Shown: positions 27,370-34,505 of the stretch, in pieces
Numbering within the stretch: the first letter of the stretch is position 1
Layout: every line of letters starts with the position of its first letter
NCBI RefSeq assembly: GCF_009707365.1
Contig: NZ_CP046122.1
Span: 4,774,001 to 4,838,000 of the forward strand
DNA length: 64,000 bases
From: Microlunatus sp. Gsoil 973
Lineage (GTDB): Bacteria; Actinomycetota; Actinomycetes; Propionibacteriales; Propionibacteriaceae
Reading direction: 5' to 3'
Made by a program: the position numbers and the translations under genes
Notes under the pieces: model-generated
Told to the model about the DNA's origin: nothing
What the model saw: the letters and a program-made list of their open reading frames with translations, nothing else
Database searches by the model: none

Positions 27370-28965
27370 ATGACCACACACCCAACGCCGAACTCGACAA
27401 CGAGTCCTGCTGAGGACCACGATCTGGTGATCGTGGTCGATTACGGCGCCCAGTACGCCCAGTTGATCGCCCGGCGGGTTCGCGAGGCCAACGTCTATTC
27501 CGAGATCGTCCCGCACACCGCGACGGTCGCCGAGATTCTGGCGCGCAAGCCGAAGGCCGTCATCCTTTCCGGCGGGCCGTCCTCGGTGTACACCCCTGGC
27601 GCTCCGCAGGTCGACCCCGGGATGTTCTCCGGTGACGTGCCGGTGTTCGGGATCTGCTACGGCTTCCAGGCGATGGCCCGGGCGCTGGGTGGTGAGGTGG
27701 CACGGACCGGTGGGAGCGAGTTCGGCCGGACCGCGCTGCAGGTCGGCGATCACGGTCGGCTGCTGGCCGGGCTGCCTGATCACCTGCGGGTCTGGATGAG
27801 CCATGGCGACTCCGTGGTCAAGGCGCCCGACGGCTTCGTTGCGCTGGCCGGCACCGACGGAGCGCCGATCGCGGCGTTCGAGGATCTGGGTCGCGGACTG
27901 GCCGGGGTGCAGTGGCATCCCGAAGTGCTGCACAGCGAGTCCGGTCAGCGGGTGTTGGAGAGCTTCCTCTTCGAGGTGGCCGGCGCGCGGCCGACCTGGA
28001 CCGCCTCGAACATCGTCGAGGAGTCGGTGGCCGCGATCCGGCAAGAGGTCGGTGACAAACAGGTGATCTGCGCGTTGTCCGGCGGCGTCGACTCAGCTGT
28101 CGCCGCGGCGCTGGTGCAGCGGGCGATCGGTGATCAACTCACCTGCGTGTTCGTTGATCATGGTCTGCTGCGCAGGGGTGAGGCGGAGCAGGTCGAGCTG
28201 GATTTCGTCGAGGTGACCGGTGTCGATCTGAAGGTGTTCGATGCCCGCAAGCAGTTCCTGGATGCGCTTGCCGGCGTCTCCGACCCGGAACGCAAGCGCA
28301 AGATCATCGGGGCCGAATTCATCGCCTGCTTCGAACAGGCGGCCCGGGAGATCGTCGGTTCCGTCGACGGATCGGTCGAGTTCCTGGTGCAGGGCACCCT
28401 GTATCCCGACGTCGTCGAGTCCGGCGGTGGCGAGGGTGCGGCCAACATCAAGAGCCACCACAACGTGGGTGGCCTGCCCGATGATCTTCAGTTCACCCTG
28501 ATCGAACCGCTGCGCACCTTGTTCAAGGACGAGGTCCGCGCGGTCGGTGAGGAACTCGGTCTGCCGGCGGCCATGGTCTGGCGGCAGCCCTTCCCCGGCC
28601 CCGGGCTGGCCATCAGGATCATCGGCGAGGTGACCCAGGAACGGCTGGACATCCTGCGTGAGGCCGATGCGATCGTTCGCGCCGAGGTGACCGCTGCCGG
28701 TCTGGACCGGGACATCTGGCAGTTCCCGGTCGTGCTGCTGGCTGATGTCCGTTCAGTGGGTGTCCAGGGCGACGGCCGGACCTACGGCCACCCCATCGTG
28801 CTCCGCCCGGTGACCAGTGAGGACGCGATGACCGCTGACTGGGGACGGCTGCCGTACGACCTGCTGGAGCGGATCAGTTCCAAGATCACCAACAGTGTCC
28901 GGGAGATCAACCGGGTGACGCTGGACATCACCAGCAAGCCGCCGGCAACCATCGAGTGGGAGTGA
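27370..28965 (+). CDS. guaA: GMP synthase (glutamine-hydrolysing)
   Basis: GuaA aminates XMP to GMP using glutamine and ATP. The 531-residue protein has a class I glutamine amidotransferase domain (nucleophile cysteine in [11 protein letters not shown]; His and Glu in [10 protein letters not shown]), the ATP pyrophosphatase P-loop [12 protein letters not shown], and the C-terminal dimerisation domain ending KPPATIEWE. The start at ATG 27370 gives a 15-residue extension before the first strand. TAGACT at 27321-27326 is a candidate -10 box; the 12-base palindrome CTGCGATCGCAG (27341-27352) lies in the leader. Works with guaB in the same neighbourhood. Confidence 0.97.
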
Positions 28966-29484
28966 TCAGCCCTCCGGCTTGTCGTCACCGGCCGGTTCGG
29001 GCCCCTTGTCCCCGGCCGGGCCGGGGTCGGACTGGGCGGGCGGCGTCGGGGGCTGATTGACGGTCGGGCCGCTCGGCTGGGTCGGGTGCTTGGCCCGGCT
29101 GAACAGGTCCTCAGCGCTCTGCCGCGGCGGCTGCGGCGCCGAGGTGTCGATGTTCGGGTCACGGTTCGGCCGCCACGGGGGACCAGCGGCGCCCCAGACC
29201 GGATCGCTGTGCTGCTGCGGATTCTGCTGCTGCCACCCGAACCGCGGTGCCGGACCGATCGATCCGGGCTCCCGGGGCTCGGCCTCGGGAATCAGCAGCA
29301 TCATCAGCAGATAGATCGCGATGACCGGGACCGCCGCGGTGACCAGGGCGATGATCACGACGGCAACCCGGACCAGCGTCGGATCCATGTTCAGGTATTC
29401 GGCGATCCCGCCGCAGACACCGCCGATCCATCGATCGTTCCGACTGCGGCGCAGCCGGCGGGGGCGGGACTCGGGATAGTTCAT
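28966..29484 (-). CDS. PspC-domain membrane protein
   Basis: A 172-residue protein with an N-terminal PspC domain: WIGGVCGGIAEYLNMDPTLVRV followed by a hydrophobic segment ending LLMMLLIPEAEP. After residue 75 it is a proline-, glutamine- and glycine-rich cytoplasmic or surface tail with no fold. PspC proteins sense or counter membrane stress. It is the last gene of a leftward set with the small membrane protein and the larger PspC/LiaF-like gene. Its stop touches that of guaA. Confidence 0.88.
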   Translation of the reverse strand: MNYPESRPRRLRRSRNDRWIGGVCGGIAEYLNMDPTLVRVAVVIIALVTAAVPVIAIYLLMMLLIPEAEPREPGSIGPAPRFGWQQQNPQQHSDPVWGAAGPPWRPNRDPNIDTSAPQPPRQSAEDLFSRAKHPTQPSGPTVNQPPTPPAQSDPGPAGDKGPEPAGDDKPEG

Positions 29485-29524
29485 GATCGTGCCTTCCGGA
29501 TGAGTTGGTGGTCAGGAGCGTGGG

Positions 29525-29707
29525 TCAGGAGCGCGGTCGGGAAGCGGCCAGGCCGATGATCCCGATCAGAACGAGGGTCAGCGGGGCGGCGATCCGGAGT
29601 GTCGACCACTCGAGTCGGCCACCGAAGGACAACCAGAGTCCGCCGATGGCCAGCAGGGTGGCGAGCAGACCGAGGACCAGCGAGACTGCATCGGGTCGGC
29701 GCTTCAT
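29525..29707 (-). CDS. Small two-segment membrane protein
   Basis: A 60-residue protein with a basic start MKRRPD and two hydrophobic segments (VSLVLGLLATLLAIGGLWLSF and LRIAAPLTLVLIGIIGLAA). Its ATG overlaps the stop of the upstream PspC/LiaF-like gene (ATGA), which supports real expression by translational coupling. Actinobacterial PspC clusters often contain a similar small protein. No enzymatic function can be assigned. Confidence 0.75.
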   Translation of the reverse strand: MKRRPDAVSLVLGLLATLLAIGGLWLSFGGRLEWSTLRIAAPLTLVLIGIIGLAASRPRS

Positions 29708-31014
29708 CGACGTACCTCCAGCTGGCCTTTGCCGACCTTCAGATCGACCGTGAACACCGGCCCGACGGTTGCGGCCGGAGGCTGCTCACGGAAGGAAAGG
29801 TTCGGACCGGAGCTGAGTTGTTTGCCGTCGGCGCTGATCATTCCCTCGCGGACGGTCCCGGTCACCCGGGTCGCAACGCCGCGGGGCAGTTCGACGACCA
29901 GCCGTCCGGTGCCGACCGAGGCGGTGTAGCTGCGCGACTGTTCCGGTGCGACCTGGCGCAGGTCGACGGTGAGCTGTCCGACACGCAGGTGGTCACCGGC
30001 CGGCAATTCGGCTGCCGACGTGTACTGCAGCCGCTTGATGCCGACATCACCGGCGAAGGCCGTGTTGTTCTGGGCGACCAGGGTCAGAACCATCGAGACC
30101 GCGACGACAACAGTGGCGAACGCCAGTCCGCGGGGCCGTCCGACGCGGGCGCCGACCAGCAGCGTCGTGCCGAAGATCAACAACGCCGCCGACAGGTACG
30201 CCGGGGCGGTGATCGGTGCGCCGAGTACGGACGCCACCCCGAGCCCGCTCATCGCGACACCGAGCACGATCACCGAGACCAGGCCGAGGCGGCGTGCCGC
30301 ACGGCGACGCAGGCGGGTCTGCGCGGCCAGTTGTTCCATCGCACTGTCCGGTGTCGGCTCGGAATAGAGGCCGACGGGGTCGGGATGGGAGAGGAACACC
30401 TGCCGGTCCACATCGGCTGCCGGTTCGGGCGGCGCCGGGCGGAGACCGACGCCGGCGTTCGGTGCCTCGGCCGTCGAGGAGGAGGGCGCGGCTGCCGACC
30501 GCCGCATCATGGCCTGCTGGTAGTCGGCGATCCGCTGCTGCCAGGCTGTGGCGGCTTCGGTGAAGGCGGTCGGTTCGCCGGGGAATTCGGCGAACTGCAA
30601 CGGTGGCGGCTGCCGGTCGTCCCGATCGGCCGGGCGTCGCCGGTTCCGGTAGTAGCCGAAGTACCAGACCGCGGCCACCACGAGCGCGGCGGTGAAGCTG
30701 AACGGCACCAGCCAGGACAGGGCGAGCGCGCCGATGATGCAGGCGGCAACGACGACGCCGATCTTCACCTCGCGCGACCAGGTACGGGTCTGCGGGACCC
30801 ACTCCTCGAGTTGGGACTGATCCTTGTCCTCGGCGGGCAGCATCAGCCAGCCGGCCGCGTACAGGACGAGTCCGATGCCGCCGCTCAGGGCGAGCACGGC
30901 GAATCCGACGCGGACCAGCATCGGGTCGACGTCCCAGGCGTCTGCCAGACCGGCCGACAGCCCGCTGACCTTGCGATCGGTCGCGCTGCGTCGGACCGTC
31001 CAGATCGAACTCAT
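29704..31014 (-). CDS. PspC-domain membrane protein with LiaF-like C-terminus
   Basis: A 436-residue protein. The N-terminal PspC domain (VSGLSAGLADAWDVDPMLVRVGF, then a hydrophobic segment to WLMLPAED) is followed by two further membrane segments near residues 85-120, a disordered proline-rich stretch, and a second membrane cluster at about 235-315. The last 110 residues are a beta-rich domain (LRVGQLTVDL, YTASVGTGRLVVELP, VFTVDLKVGKGQLEV) like the adhesin-like C-terminus of LiaF. LiaF restrains its histidine kinase in Firmicutes. A PspC-kinase and regulator are divergent from this gene, so an analogous control is plausible. Confidence 0.85.
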   Translation of the reverse strand: MSSIWTVRRSATDRKVSGLSAGLADAWDVDPMLVRVGFAVLALSGGIGLVLYAAGWLMLPAEDKDQSQLEEWVPQTRTWSREVKIGVVVAACIIGALALSWLVPFSFTAALVVAAVWYFGYYRNRRRPADRDDRQPPPLQFAEFPGEPTAFTEAATAWQQRIADYQQAMMRRSAAAPSSSTAEAPNAGVGLRPAPPEPAADVDRQVFLSHPDPVGLYSEPTPDSAMEQLAAQTRLRRRAARRLGLVSVIVLGVAMSGLGVASVLGAPITAPAYLSAALLIFGTTLLVGARVGRPRGLAFATVVVAVSMVLTLVAQNNTAFAGDVGIKRLQYTSAAELPAGDHLRVGQLTVDLRQVAPEQSRSYTASVGTGRLVVELPRGVATRVTGTVREGMISADGKQLSSGPNLSFREQPPAATVGPVFTVDLKVGKGQLEVRR

Positions 31015-31180
31015 GGCATCAATACTGGTGCGCCGGGCCGCGTCGCACCATCAGGGACCACCCCAGCCGACGCCGATTCGCCGCGTCGAACCGAATGGCC
31101 AGGTCAGGGCGGCAATCAGGGTGCTGGTGCGGGCTAACCCTGCTGCCCCCGGGCCCAGATCGTGCAACTCTTGGTATGAC

Positions 31181-32566
31181 ATGGTTTCCATCGGCGCTCA
31201 AGGCCGGTCCGGCTCCCAGCTCGAGTCCGGGCCGGTGCGGGCGCGCCCTGAATCCGGCGAGGAGTCGCCCACCGACTCGGTCCGGGATCAGGTGCTGCAG
31301 ACAGCGGCGCGCAAGGCCGAGGAAGAGACCGCCCCCGGACGTCGGCGGGCGACCCGGGTCAGCGACGGAGCGCTGCTCGGTGGCGTGTGCACCGGCCTGG
31401 CGCGTCACCTCGGCTGGCCCGTGATGGTGCTGCGCATCGGATTCGTCGCCCTGGCCATCACCCAGTTCGTCGGCGTCATCGCCTATGCCGCCCTCTGGCT
31501 GTTGATGCCGCCGGAGACCCGCACCGCCGCCCCCGGGCTCGAGGCGCACAGCCGGCAAGGACTGCGGCAGGAGACCAAACACCGGCGGCGCTCCGACTGG
31601 GGCGTCCTGCTGGCCCTGGTCGTCTTGGGCGCCGGGCTGATCTGGTTGTTGCAGATGACCGGGCTCGGCATCCGGCAGCAGATCTTCTGGCCGGTGGCCT
31701 TCGCCTGCGCCGGCGCCGCACTGGTCTGGCGACAGGCCGACACCGCGCGGCAGAACCAGTGGAAGAAGGACGCCGGCGGTCGGGTCTGGTTGGCGCCGCT
31801 GGTCGCCCGGGGCGGGTGGCCGTCGATCATCCGGGTGGTGATCGGACTGGCCCTGGTCGGTGCGGCGTTCGGCATCGTCGTCGCCCAGCAGAACCAGATC
31901 CAGCAGCTTCCCGACGTGTTGGCCATGACCGTGCTCGCACTGGCGGGGCTCGCCGTGGTCGCCGCACCCTGGCTGCACCGGTCGCGCAGCGCATTGAACG
32001 AGGCCCGGGCAGAGAAGGTCAGGGCCGACGCCCGAGCCGACATGGCCGCCCATCTGCACGACTCGGTGCTGCAGACGCTGGCGCTCATCCAGCGCCAGTC
32101 CGACGACCCCAAGCAGGTCCAGCGGCTGGCCCGCCGCCAGGAACGGGAACTGCGTACCTGGCTGTACGGCGAGGAGGTCTCCGACGCCACCTTGAAGGCC
32201 GCGCTGACCAACGCCGCCGCCGACATCGAGGACGACCGCGCCATCCCGGTCGAGTTGATCATGGTCGGTGACTGCGACCTGACCGAGTCGCTGCAGCCGA
32301 TCATCCGGGCGACCCGGGAGGCGATCGTCAACGCCGCCAAGCACTCCGGCGCCGACAAGATCGACGTGTACGCCGAGGTGTCGGAGGAGAACGTGGAGAT
32401 CTTCGTCCGCGATCGCGGCAGGGGATTCGATCAGAACGACATCGACGAGGACCGGATGGGCGTCAAGGGCAGCATCATCGGGCGGATGGCCCGCCACGGT
32501 GGCACCGCCCGGATTCGCAGCGGTCCCGGCGAGGGAACCGAAGTACGACTGGAGATGCCCCGATGA
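31181..32566 (+). CDS. PspC-domain sensor histidine kinase
   Basis: A 461-residue kinase. Residues 50-105 are a PspC domain (GGVCTGLARHLGWPVMVLRIGF, then LWLLMPPE). Four further membrane segments lie between about 135 and 265. The dimerisation helix carries the phosphoacceptor in MAAHLHDSVLQTLALIQRQS, typical of HisKA_3 kinases, and the ATPase domain shows NAAKHSGADKI (N box) and VRDRGRGFD. It probably senses envelope stress through the PspC domain and phosphorylates the LuxR-type regulator whose ATG overlaps its stop. ATG 31181 is preceded by no clear ribosome-binding site. Confidence 0.9.
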   Translation: MVSIGAQGRSGSQLESGPVRARPESGEESPTDSVRDQVLQTAARKAEEETAPGRRRATRVSDGALLGGVCTGLARHLGWPVMVLRIGFVALAITQFVGVIAYAALWLLMPPETRTAAPGLEAHSRQGLRQETKHRRRSDWGVLLALVVLGAGLIWLLQMTGLGIRQQIFWPVAFACAGAALVWRQADTARQNQWKKDAGGRVWLAPLVARGGWPSIIRVVIGLALVGAAFGIVVAQQNQIQQLPDVLAMTVLALAGLAVVAAPWLHRSRSALNEARAEKVRADARADMAAHLHDSVLQTLALIQRQSDDPKQVQRLARRQERELRTWLYGEEVSDATLKAALTNAAADIEDDRAIPVELIMVGDCDLTESLQPIIRATREAIVNAAKHSGADKIDVYAEVSEENVEIFVRDRGRGFDQNDIDEDRMGVKGSIIGRMARHGGTARIRSGPGEGTEVRLEMPR

Positions 32567-33309
32567 CAAAGGACCGCCCGATGACCGAGCAGCGCAACGA
32601 GTTCACCCAGCCGGACACCCTGGGAAGGGCCGGTAGCGACGCAGGGACGCCGGTCGAACGTCGCCCCGACGACCCGCGCAGCGTGGTCATCGTCGATGAT
32701 CACGCGATGTTCCGCAGCGGTGTACGGCACGAGATCGGCAACCGGTGTCGGGTGCTCGGCGAGGCCGAGGACGTCGATTCGGCAGTGCGGGTGATCCTGC
32801 AGGCCAAGCCGGATGTCGTACTGCTCGACGTCCACCTGCCCGGCGGTGGCGGGGTCGAGGTGTTGAATCGGGTGCATCAGAAGAATCCGGAGCAGAAGTT
32901 CCTGGCATTGTCGGTCTCCGACGCGGCGGAGGACGTGATCGGGGTGATCCGCGGCGGTGCCCGCGGTTACGTCACCAAGTCGATCAGCGGGCCCGAGTTG
33001 ATCGACGCCATCCGCCGGGTCGCGGAGGGCGACGCGGTGTTCTCACCGCGGCTGGCGGGCTTCGTGCTGGACGCATTCTCCGGTGCCATCGACATCGCCA
33101 GTGTCGACGAGGACCTGGATCGACTGTCCCCGCGGGAGCGGGAAGTGATGCGATTGATCGCCCGCGGGTATGCCTACAAAGAGGTGGCCAAGGAATTGTT
33201 CATCTCGATCAAGACGGTGGAGACCCATGTCAGCAGCGTGTTGCGCAAGCTGCAACTCTCCAACCGTCACCAGCTGACCCGGTGGGCGACGGACCGCCGC
33301 CTGGTCTGA
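32563..33309 (+). CDS. LuxR-type response regulator
   Basis: A 248-residue NarL-class response regulator paired with the preceding kinase (ATGA overlap). The receiver domain has SVVIVDDHAMFR, the phosphorylated aspartate in VVLLDVHLPGGG, and the switch lysine in GYVTKSI. The C-terminal HTH is LSPREREVMRLIARGYAYKE then VAKELFISIKTVETHVSSVLRKL. There is a 35-residue unstructured extension before the receiver; starting at ATG 32581 would shorten it. Targets are probably the divergent PspC genes, as in Lia/Psp-type systems; this is inference. Confidence 0.93.
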   Translation: MTKDRPMTEQRNEFTQPDTLGRAGSDAGTPVERRPDDPRSVVIVDDHAMFRSGVRHEIGNRCRVLGEAEDVDSAVRVILQAKPDVVLLDVHLPGGGGVEVLNRVHQKNPEQKFLALSVSDAAEDVIGVIRGGARGYVTKSISGPELIDAIRRVAEGDAVFSPRLAGFVLDAFSGAIDIASVDEDLDRLSPREREVMRLIARGYAYKEVAKELFISIKTVETHVSSVLRKLQLSNRHQLTRWATDRRLV

Positions 33310-33334
33310 GTCTCGAGGAGAAGAGGGGCATCAC

Positions 33335-33601
33335 ATGACCATCATCGGAACCATCATCGCCGGACTCGTCGTCGGCATCCTCGCCCGCGTCGTGCTACCC
33401 GGCAAGCAGGCATACGGATGGATCGTCACCATCCTGCTCGGCATCGGCGGTGCCTTGATCGGGTACTGGCTCGCCTCAATGATGGGCGTCGCCGAGACCG
33501 GGGGGATCGACTGGATCCGCTGGATCCTCAGCGTCGCCGTTGCCGCCGTGTTGAGCGTGATCTTCAGCGCCATCACCAAGCGGCGGAAGGAGGTCCTCTG
33601 A
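33335..33601 (+). CDS. GlsB/YeaQ/YmgE family stress membrane protein
   Basis: An 88-residue membrane protein with three hydrophobic helices and the glycine-rich motifs of the transglycosylase-associated (YeaQ/GlsB) family: IIAGLVVGILARVVLPGKQ and LGIGGALIGYWLA. GAGGAGAAGAGG lies about 10 bases before the ATG. It follows the PspC-kinase regulator pair by 25 bases and may be part of the same stress operon. GlsB-type proteins anchor stress proteins in the membrane in Firmicutes; no such role is proven here. Confidence 0.88.
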   Translation: MTIIGTIIAGLVVGILARVVLPGKQAYGWIVTILLGIGGALIGYWLASMMGVAETGGIDWIRWILSVAVAAVLSVIFSAITKRRKEVL

Positions 33602-33686: not shown

Positions 33687-34046
33687 ATGGAGCTGGCCGA
33701 CGAGATCGTCCTGCTACTGCACCTGATCGGCTTCGCCGCCCTCTTCGGCGGCATTCTCGTCCAGATCAGGGTGCGGGAGCCGGAGGTCAATGCGGCCATG
33801 CTGCACGGCTCGTACACGATGCTGGTCACCGGCCTGGCACTGGCCGTTCTCGCCTGGACCGGCGGCGGTCCCGGGAACGACGACCAGGTCAACGTCGCCA
33901 AGCTGGTGACCAAGCTCGTGATCGCGGCGATCATCGCCTTCCTGGTGATCATCAACCGCCGGTTCACGTCCATCCCGAGGGGATTGTGGTCGCTGCTCGG
34001 TCTGCTCACCCTGGGTAACGCCGTCCTGGCCGTCCTCTGGCAGTAA
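33687..34046 (+). CDS. Small integral membrane protein, four helices
   Basis: A 119-residue hydrophobic protein with four likely membrane helices (LLLHLIGFAALFGGILV, YTMLVTGLALAVLAWTG, LVIAAIIAFLVIINR, LLGLLTLGNAVLAVLW). No enzymatic motif is present. TAGTTT (33675-33680) ends six bases before ATG 33687, so the transcript is probably leaderless. The Rrf2 regulator starts 12 bases after its stop, so they may share a transcript. Function unknown. Confidence 0.72.
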   Translation: MELADEIVLLLHLIGFAALFGGILVQIRVREPEVNAAMLHGSYTMLVTGLALAVLAWTGGGPGNDDQVNVAKLVTKLVIAAIIAFLVIINRRFTSIPRGLWSLLGLLTLGNAVLAVLWQ

Positions 34047-34058
34047 TCTTCATTCCCT

Positions 34059-34505
34059 ATGAGACTTTCAGCGCGCGTGGACTACGCCCTCCGGGCCGCC
34101 GCCGAGCTGGCCGCGGCGGGTGGGCCTCGCACGCTGGACCAGCTCGCCGCCGCCCAACAGATTCCTGCCAAGTATCTGGAGAGCATTCTGGGCGAGATGC
34201 GCCGGGGCGGCATCCTGCGCAGCCAGCGAGGGCCGGAGGGCGGCTACCGCCTCGGCCGGCCCGCGGAGCAGATCAGCATCGCCGACATCATCCGAGTGCT
34301 GGACGGCGAACTCGCCAACGTCCGCGGCAGCCGGCCGGAGAACCTCGAATACACCGGTGCGGCAGTGCCGCTGCAACAGGTCTGGATCGCACTCAGAGCG
34401 AGTGAGCGGTCGATCCTGGAACAGGTCACCCTCGCCAACATCGCCAGCGCCACCATGCCGCAGACGATCGCAGACCTGATCGCCTCGCCCGCCGCCTGGT
34501 CCTAG
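34059..34505 (+). CDS. Rrf2-family regulator without cysteines
   Basis: A 148-residue winged-helix regulator: MRLSARVDYALRAAAELAA, then QIPAKYLESILGEMRRGGIL and SQRGPEGGYRLGRPAEQISI are standard Rrf2 motifs. It contains no cysteine, so it cannot hold the Fe-S cluster of IscR, NsrR or RsrR; it belongs to the CymR-like side of the family, which controls sulfur metabolism through protein partners or ligands. TAATCT (34044-34049), formed partly by the previous stop codon, lies 9 bases before the ATG. The TauE/SafE exporter follows after a 117-base spacer holding a dyad. Confidence 0.9.
   Translation: MRLSARVDYALRAAAELAAAGGPRTLDQLAAAQQIPAKYLESILGEMRRGGILRSQRGPEGGYRLGRPAEQISIADIIRVLDGELANVRGSRPENLEYTGAAVPLQQVWIALRASERSILEQVTLANIASATMPQTIADLIASPAAWS

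Follow-up and report, generated by a model that had tools for sequence, protein, structure and literature searches.

What kind of signalling system is formed when a membrane-bound histidine kinase and the membrane proteins encoded opposite to it carry the same domain, PspC? The question is raised by a locus of Microlunatus sp. Gsoil 973 (Actinomycetota, Propionibacteriaceae), contained in a stretch of 64,000 nucleotides (contig NZ_CP046122.1, positions 4,774,001 to 4,838,000, forward strand) that is denoted here as the window, and whose numbering is used for the features of the locus. A preliminary description had recognized two leftward PspC genes and a gene for a membrane protein of 60 amino acids (aa), facing the genes for a PspC-containing kinase, its response regulator and a GlsB-like protein, and this layout was borne out, with all frames present and the Pfam domains confirmed. 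The answer proposed here, with a probability of roughly three in four, is that the locus encodes an actinobacterial EsrISR three-component envelope-stress system together with an extra, conserved small membrane subunit. The core is of a known kind, and what appears to be new is a conserved fourth gene, of which no description was found, and a candidate operator that is well supported by sequence comparison. Gene content, conservation, domain folds, the intergenic box, the gene overlap and the selection acting on the small gene were established by computation.

An EsrISR-type core with a predicted LiaF-like tail

The rightward half of the core comprises the gene for an EsrS-like histidine kinase (31181 to 32566, forward strand; 461 aa from the likely ATG), which contains PspC (E = 4e-18), membrane helices, an LHDSVLQTL phosphorylation motif and HATPase_c (E = 2e-11), and that for an EsrR-like response regulator (32563 to 33309, forward strand), made of a receiver (Response_reg, 2.9e-20) and a GerE/LuxR-type DNA-binding domain (6.3e-20). 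The regulator start overlaps the kinase stop (32563 versus 32566), and the kinase frame is open from 30824 onward, ATG 31181 being our guess at the most likely start. On the reverse strand lies the gene for an EsrI-like protein of 436 aa (29704 to 31014), with PspC (E = 1e-16), further helices and a predicted LiaF-like/Toastrack C-terminal domain, followed by the small gene (29525 to 29707, reverse strand; 60 aa, two helices), a candidate fourth component.

The same core layout is found in EsrISR of Corynebacterium glutamicum, reportedly described by Kleine et al. in 2017 (doi 10.1111/mmi.13839) and known here through citing papers. In that organism the names are EsrI for cg0706, Cg0707/CgtS7 for the kinase and Cg0709/CgtR7 for the regulator. 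PMC9239133, PMC6975037, PMC9960051 and PMC10963414 treat the system, so that clusters of this type do have a published mechanism, of which the preliminary description was not aware. According to these papers, cg0706 is EsrI, an inhibitor of EsrSR, and bacitracin and vancomycin can activate the regulon (PMC6975037), and the esr genes are listed as cg0706-0708 (PMC10963414); according to PMC3353115, Cg0707 has 423 aa, with PspC at 47-107 and the histidine at position 250, and the layout of Cg0709 is also described. A class-wide gene layout for such clusters is given in PMC11237479. By analogy with C. glutamicum, EsrI of the Microlunatus locus would likewise act as an inhibitor, and the two antibiotics would activate the system.

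The locus and EsrISR have in common a PspC-kinase with an adjacent LuxR/NarL-type regulator, a divergent PspC membrane protein across a shared intergenic region, the active histidine in the same motif and the proximity of guaA. A Corynebacterium relative (L175; 423-aa kinase, histidine at 250, 54.6% GC, guaA nearby) matches C. glutamicum in kinase length and histidine position, and its kinase is 37% identical to that of the window over the alignment; the LHDSVLQTLALIQ block is invariant in six out of six aligned kinases. The GMP synthase gene guaA, a conserved neighbour on the left of the module (27373 to 28965, forward strand; GATase 2.1e-40, GMP_synt_C 2e-37 in Pfam), was found in at least 128 of the 182 loci compared (at least 16/33 of the same order, 80/110 of the others and 32/39 of Corynebacterium), these counts being lower bounds because the fetched stretches differ in length. 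Those 182 loci (in all, 33 same-order, 110 other and 39 Corynebacterium) are the window, 41 and 60 fetched loci and 80 named ones; the sample is uneven, as the named loci are the best 80 of 573 matches to a Corynebacterium query, it contains some near-duplicates (for instance, L183 and L196), and the assignment of most genomes in the Corynebacterium group is inferred. A divergent EsrI lies within 1 kb of the kinase in 168 loci, 130 of them outside Corynebacterium and 38 within it; several of the remaining 14 are short or cut stretches.

Kinases of this type are widespread in Actinomycetes. Near full-length relatives occur in 54 of 57 related genomes, the remaining three giving weak matches only, and 128 of 197 genomes of the class have a match at E <= 1.1e-40, the next best standing at 5.4e-18 (177/197 with any match at E <= 0.001). 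With the threshold set at E <= 1e-25, a further family had relatives in 133 of its 151 genomes, and the presumed Corynebacterium genus in 102 of 161. The named loci, among the matches listed (best 80 of 573), include Amycolatopsis, Saccharopolyspora, Nocardia and Rhodococcus. Within the family just mentioned, all nine genomes of one genus (g23; 5.0-6.2 Mb) lack an EsrS match at that threshold, compared with 133/151 in the family, which is probably a loss across the whole genus.

The preliminary description had also ascribed a LiaF-like tail to the EsrI-like protein, and this was upheld by its relatives: LiaF-like_C (PF09922) is matched at E <= 0.1 in 52 of 58 aligned sequences (best 8.4e-10), with the caveat that the window protein alone gives no Pfam match in its tail. 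In a model built from the 58 sequences (predicted local distance difference test, pLDDT, 72.9; predicted template modelling score, pTM, 0.44), the tail is all-beta between residues 324 and 435, with a mean pLDDT of at least 90 per 10-residue block from 331. The best structure matching this tail in the PDB was 4qrk (Foldseek E = 1.1e-3, probability 1.00, TM-score 0.40 by target length), Foldseek yielding no PDB match for the tail at E <= 0.001, and a search of the PDB with the EsrI sequence gave one match (E = 0.043). In PMC11237479, 4QRK is given as an example of the Toastrack fold; EsrI is predicted to end in a LiaF-like/Toastrack domain.

The reading of the locus as a combination of LiaFSR and Psp logics stands in part. 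With LiaFSR of Bacillus subtilis, the locus shares the LiaF-like C-terminal domain on the presumed inhibitor and a signalling scheme built from three parts, an inhibitor, a kinase and a LuxR-type regulator; unlike LiaFSR, it has PspC on inhibitor and kinase alike, the genes are divergent, and a LiaH/PspA gene is absent from the locus. The PspC domains are shared with the classical pspFABC system, whereas the locus lacks PspA, PspB and PspF and signals through a two-component system. The genome (4.91 Mb, one contig) contains four PspC domains, three of them at this locus, and a single PspA gene (contig positions 2487177-2487863), about 2.3 Mb away. For the actinobacterial "Lia-like system without PspA", the available part of PMC11237479 makes no mention of an overlapping two-helix gene or of a box. 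The preliminary description was right in seeing a module of the envelope-stress type, with a PspC-kinase, its regulator and a divergent LiaF-tailed PspC protein; the name "three-PspC", however, is not what sets the system apart.

A small two-helix gene at the end of esrI

The start codon of the 60-aa gene lies on the esrI stop codon, within an ATGA overlap (29704-29707). Among the loci with a divergent EsrI, 127 of the 130 from outside Corynebacterium (all except L089, L143 and L173) have a small membrane-protein gene directly behind esrI, as have none of the 38 from Corynebacterium, a count before which one Corynebacterium hit (L193; one helix, 17 nucleotides (nt) after the esrI stop) had been set aside. 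Exactly two helices are predicted in 122 of these genes, by a crude rule (a 19-residue stretch with a mean Kyte-Doolittle value of 1.5). The esrI stop is overlapped in 125 of the 127, with an offset of -8 in 63, -4 in 45, -14 in 9, -11 in 6 and -1 in 2, and the other two genes start 1 nt and 28 nt behind it; for EsrI, EsrS and a number of the small genes, the start codon had to be guessed. When the same rule was applied to the first 82 loci, of which seven are from Corynebacterium, it selected a small gene at 68/78 esrI stops, 8/80 regulator stops and 3/42 guaA stops, and with the restriction to exactly two helices the numbers became 63, 1 and 0. In nine Corynebacterium loci, inspected for up to 2.2 kb behind esrI, no small two-helix frame was found on the same strand within 300 nt (the stretch of L195 ends just after esrI). 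L177, L180 and L190 have helix-bearing frames of the same strand at least 340 nt behind esrI (128, 144, 207 and 207 aa), and L175 has there a 189-aa frame of the opposite strand with one helix. The difference extends to EsrI itself: at least two tail helices precede its C-terminal domain in 128/130 non-Corynebacterium loci versus 3/38 of Corynebacterium, where there is usually one.

The small gene is under purifying selection. In 18 out of 18 close pairs, chosen by hand, synonymous substitutions were favoured, with ratios of the pN/pS type between 0.06 and 0.60; once the overlap codons were dropped, the pooled proportions were 0.101 for non-synonymous (pN) and 0.311 for synonymous (pS) substitutions. 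G13 and G49 are the only near-invariant residues in 62 members from across the class, and M1, W34 and G49 are invariant in 45 members (the window and the named loci). The structural model places helices at residues 7-28 and 40-55 with moderate confidence (pLDDT 72.2, pTM 0.38). The window protein reached no family cut-off in Pfam, a search of the members against Pfam and NCBIfam identified no family with a convincing number of them, and the LiaF-TM profile (PF22570) matched 4 of 62, not significantly (best E = 0.03). The gene is annotated in Tsukamurella, and no description of it was found in the accessible parts of the literature, which leave out most subscription papers and, for this reason, are no proof that it is unpublished. 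Outside Corynebacterium it is a constant part of the system, and the most constant one that the accessible literature does not cover. It is present in nearly all relatives examined and absent from the sole genus for which bench work on this alarm was found; if its product is a subunit, the bench model would be without a part of the mechanism.

A side observation concerns Tsukamurella tyrosinosolvens (L104), in which guaA and the whole EsrISR-type cluster, its small gene annotated as a hypothetical protein, are found in a record filed as a plasmid (NZ_LR134467.1), which may be a piece of chromosome.

A near-palindrome in the shared intergenic region

De novo motif finding between esrI and the PspC region of the kinase gene brought up a near-palindrome, TCAGGGTNNTCCCYGATG. 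With the final matrix, 166 of the 168 regions contain a box scoring at least 10, facing esrI in 123 and esrS in 43. The scores of real regions (median 23.3, 5th percentile 15.5) are to be compared with those of shuffled ones (median -3.3, 95th percentile 5.1), bearing in mind that the matrix was trained on the same 168 regions that it scores; genome counts of the core and of a longer form of the box provide an independent check. In the 57 relatives, 56 exact copies of the core, GGGTNNTCCCYGATG, were counted (35 genomes) versus one of the backward pattern, and 15 of the 57 have a copy immediately upstream of the kinase. For the longer form the count in the 197 genomes of the class is 11 versus 0, and 7 of the 11 precede a PspC protein at the kinase. 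The copy of the window, TGGGGTGGTCCCTGATG (31049 to 31065, reverse strand, read towards esrI), matches the core exactly. Its GGGT begins 49 nt before the esrI ATG, an offset of 48-49 nt being kept in seven out of nine same-genus esrI sites, with a longer assumed reading frame in the other two. From these sequence comparisons the box is likely to be the binding site of EsrR and thus a candidate operator, and its conservation would allow the regulon to be predicted genome by genome.

In the window genome, 34 matches with at most one mismatch to the core were counted, versus 7 for the backward pattern, and the esrI site is the sole convincing box. The other exact core (contig positions 3001405-3001419, L275) lies inside a 576-aa reading frame, and neither the locus of the fourth PspC domain (L001) nor that of PspA (L005) has a good box, the best scores being 5.8 and 5.4. 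A promoter scan returned 0 promoters versus 0.2 expected, and a terminator scan, 2 terminator-like sites versus 1.0 expected. Elsewhere in the class, the longer form precedes an ABC-transporter ATPase in one case (L312; PF00005, E = 4.4e-35) and a HAAS-domain membrane protein in two (L314 and L315; PF22564, E = 1.4e-6 and 2.2e-6). HAAS domains are linked to PspC systems in PMC11237479, and the HAAS-domain protein is a possible conserved member of the regulon.

The role of the small protein and of the flanking genes

The observations can be integrated in the following model. In unstressed cells the PspC-kinase EsrS would be kept inactive by EsrI within the membrane. This hold would be relieved when the lipid-II cycle or the membrane is damaged, and EsrS, once released, would phosphorylate EsrR. 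Bound to the near-palindrome of the intergenic region, EsrR would then raise expression of esrSR, of the esrI operon and of genes for envelope defence. Through translational coupling to esrI, the two-helix protein would be made alongside EsrI, most likely as its membrane partner. This role is preferred because the small gene is coupled to esrI and conserved, and because it is missing from Corynebacterium, whose EsrI mostly has one tail helix. A further step, for which the chances seem evenly balanced, would be that EsrISR was ancestrally a four-part system, the two-helix protein being in most Actinomycetes an obligate subunit, setting or sensing the state in which EsrS is found; Corynebacterium would have lost it, usually together with the EsrI helices, and the published three-component picture would represent a reduced form. 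This joint loss of gene and helices may go back to no more than one or two events.

Several points weigh against these proposals. The small gene is not needed everywhere, since Corynebacterium, L089, L143 and L173 do without it, and L089 and L173 still hold three helices in the EsrI tail. Among the 127 small genes there are doubtful ones, such as those of L100 (133 aa, one helix and a different look) and L174 (28 nt after the stop). C. glutamicum itself is not among the loci, the close match L175 having served as a stand-in, and the box of the window, with a score of 13.0, is below the 5th percentile of 15.5 and belongs to the weaker copies. The small protein was not established as a homologue of the EsrI or EsrS helices, the reversed profiles coming close to the real ones: hhalign gave 77% with the EsrI tail helices (68% for the reversed profile and 8-57% for ten column-shuffled ones) and 69% with those of EsrS (63% and 3-26%, respectively). 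Lastly, the tests that might have spoken for contacts gave ambiguous results or results that controls equalled. Covariation between EsrI tail and EsrS helices and in four pairings of the small protein was above all eight permutations, at an effective number of 43-58 sequences and with 75 loci in one cluster, so that relatedness was not fully kept in the permutations; the top pair of the small protein and the EsrI tail sits in the overlapping gene ends.

It is possible, although we consider it rather unlikely, that the small protein belongs instead to what the system produces in defence, protecting the membrane or serving as an anchor, and is co-expressed with EsrI with no role in sensing or inhibition, as LiaI of B. 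subtilis, a small membrane protein, anchors LiaH (PMC9239133 and PMC11237479). Its gene is transcribed with esrI behind the likely EsrR box and would thus be stress-induced, and the genome has one PspA. However, the overlap of the stop codon in 125/127 ties the gene to EsrI itself, no link to the distant PspA gene was seen, and the match to the LiaF-TM family was not significant; moreover, a better output candidate, the third PspC gene, comes after the small gene.

That third PspC gene (28966 to 29484, reverse strand; 172 aa, a single PspC domain, E = 1.3e-22) and the GlsB-like gene flank the core in the window, unlike in EsrISR. The former had been taken as a defining feature of a new hybrid of LiaFSR and Psp, whose kinase could be held off by PspC-PspC contacts among three proteins, a proposal that now appears improbable in spite of the three PspC domains in one locus and the LiaF-like tail of EsrI. 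The two-PspC core is the layout described for EsrISR, and the third gene, found 1-3 kb off on the esrI strand in 26/33 same-order loci, 5/110 others and 0/39 of Corynebacterium, is an order-level extra within the same leftward gene group. In a paired covariation analysis of the two PspC domains, the strongest pairs did not stand out from the permutations: the top value and the top-5 mean were each reached by 19 of 20 permutations and the top-20 mean by 5 of 20, in a test of low power (effective number 58). As for the notion that the small reading frame is no gene but an artefact of the coding bias of GC-rich DNA, high-GC genomes do hold many spurious frames (64 of at least 50 aa overlap this 10-kb stretch), but the class-wide conservation of position, overlap and two helices, which the controls do not show, the mostly synonymous substitutions and the annotation in Tsukamurella leave it hardly any credibility.

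The GlsB-like small membrane protein (33335 to 33601, forward strand) matches Transgly_assoc (PF04226) at E = 1.4e-5 and 25.6 bits, barely above the cut-off of 25.3. It had been counted as a member of the module, but it is not a stable part of the system: among 19 same-genus loci, its gene lies on the regulator strand in 5 and on the opposite strand in 7, and was not found in the short flank of the other 7. Behind the module (33687-34505) are encoded a 119-aa membrane protein (DUF2231, E = 0.0038, below the cut-off) and then an Rrf2-type regulator (PF02082, E = 2.8e-30); relatives of the former stand beside the kinase in 17 of the 19 same-genus loci, and those of the latter, within short flanks, in 6.

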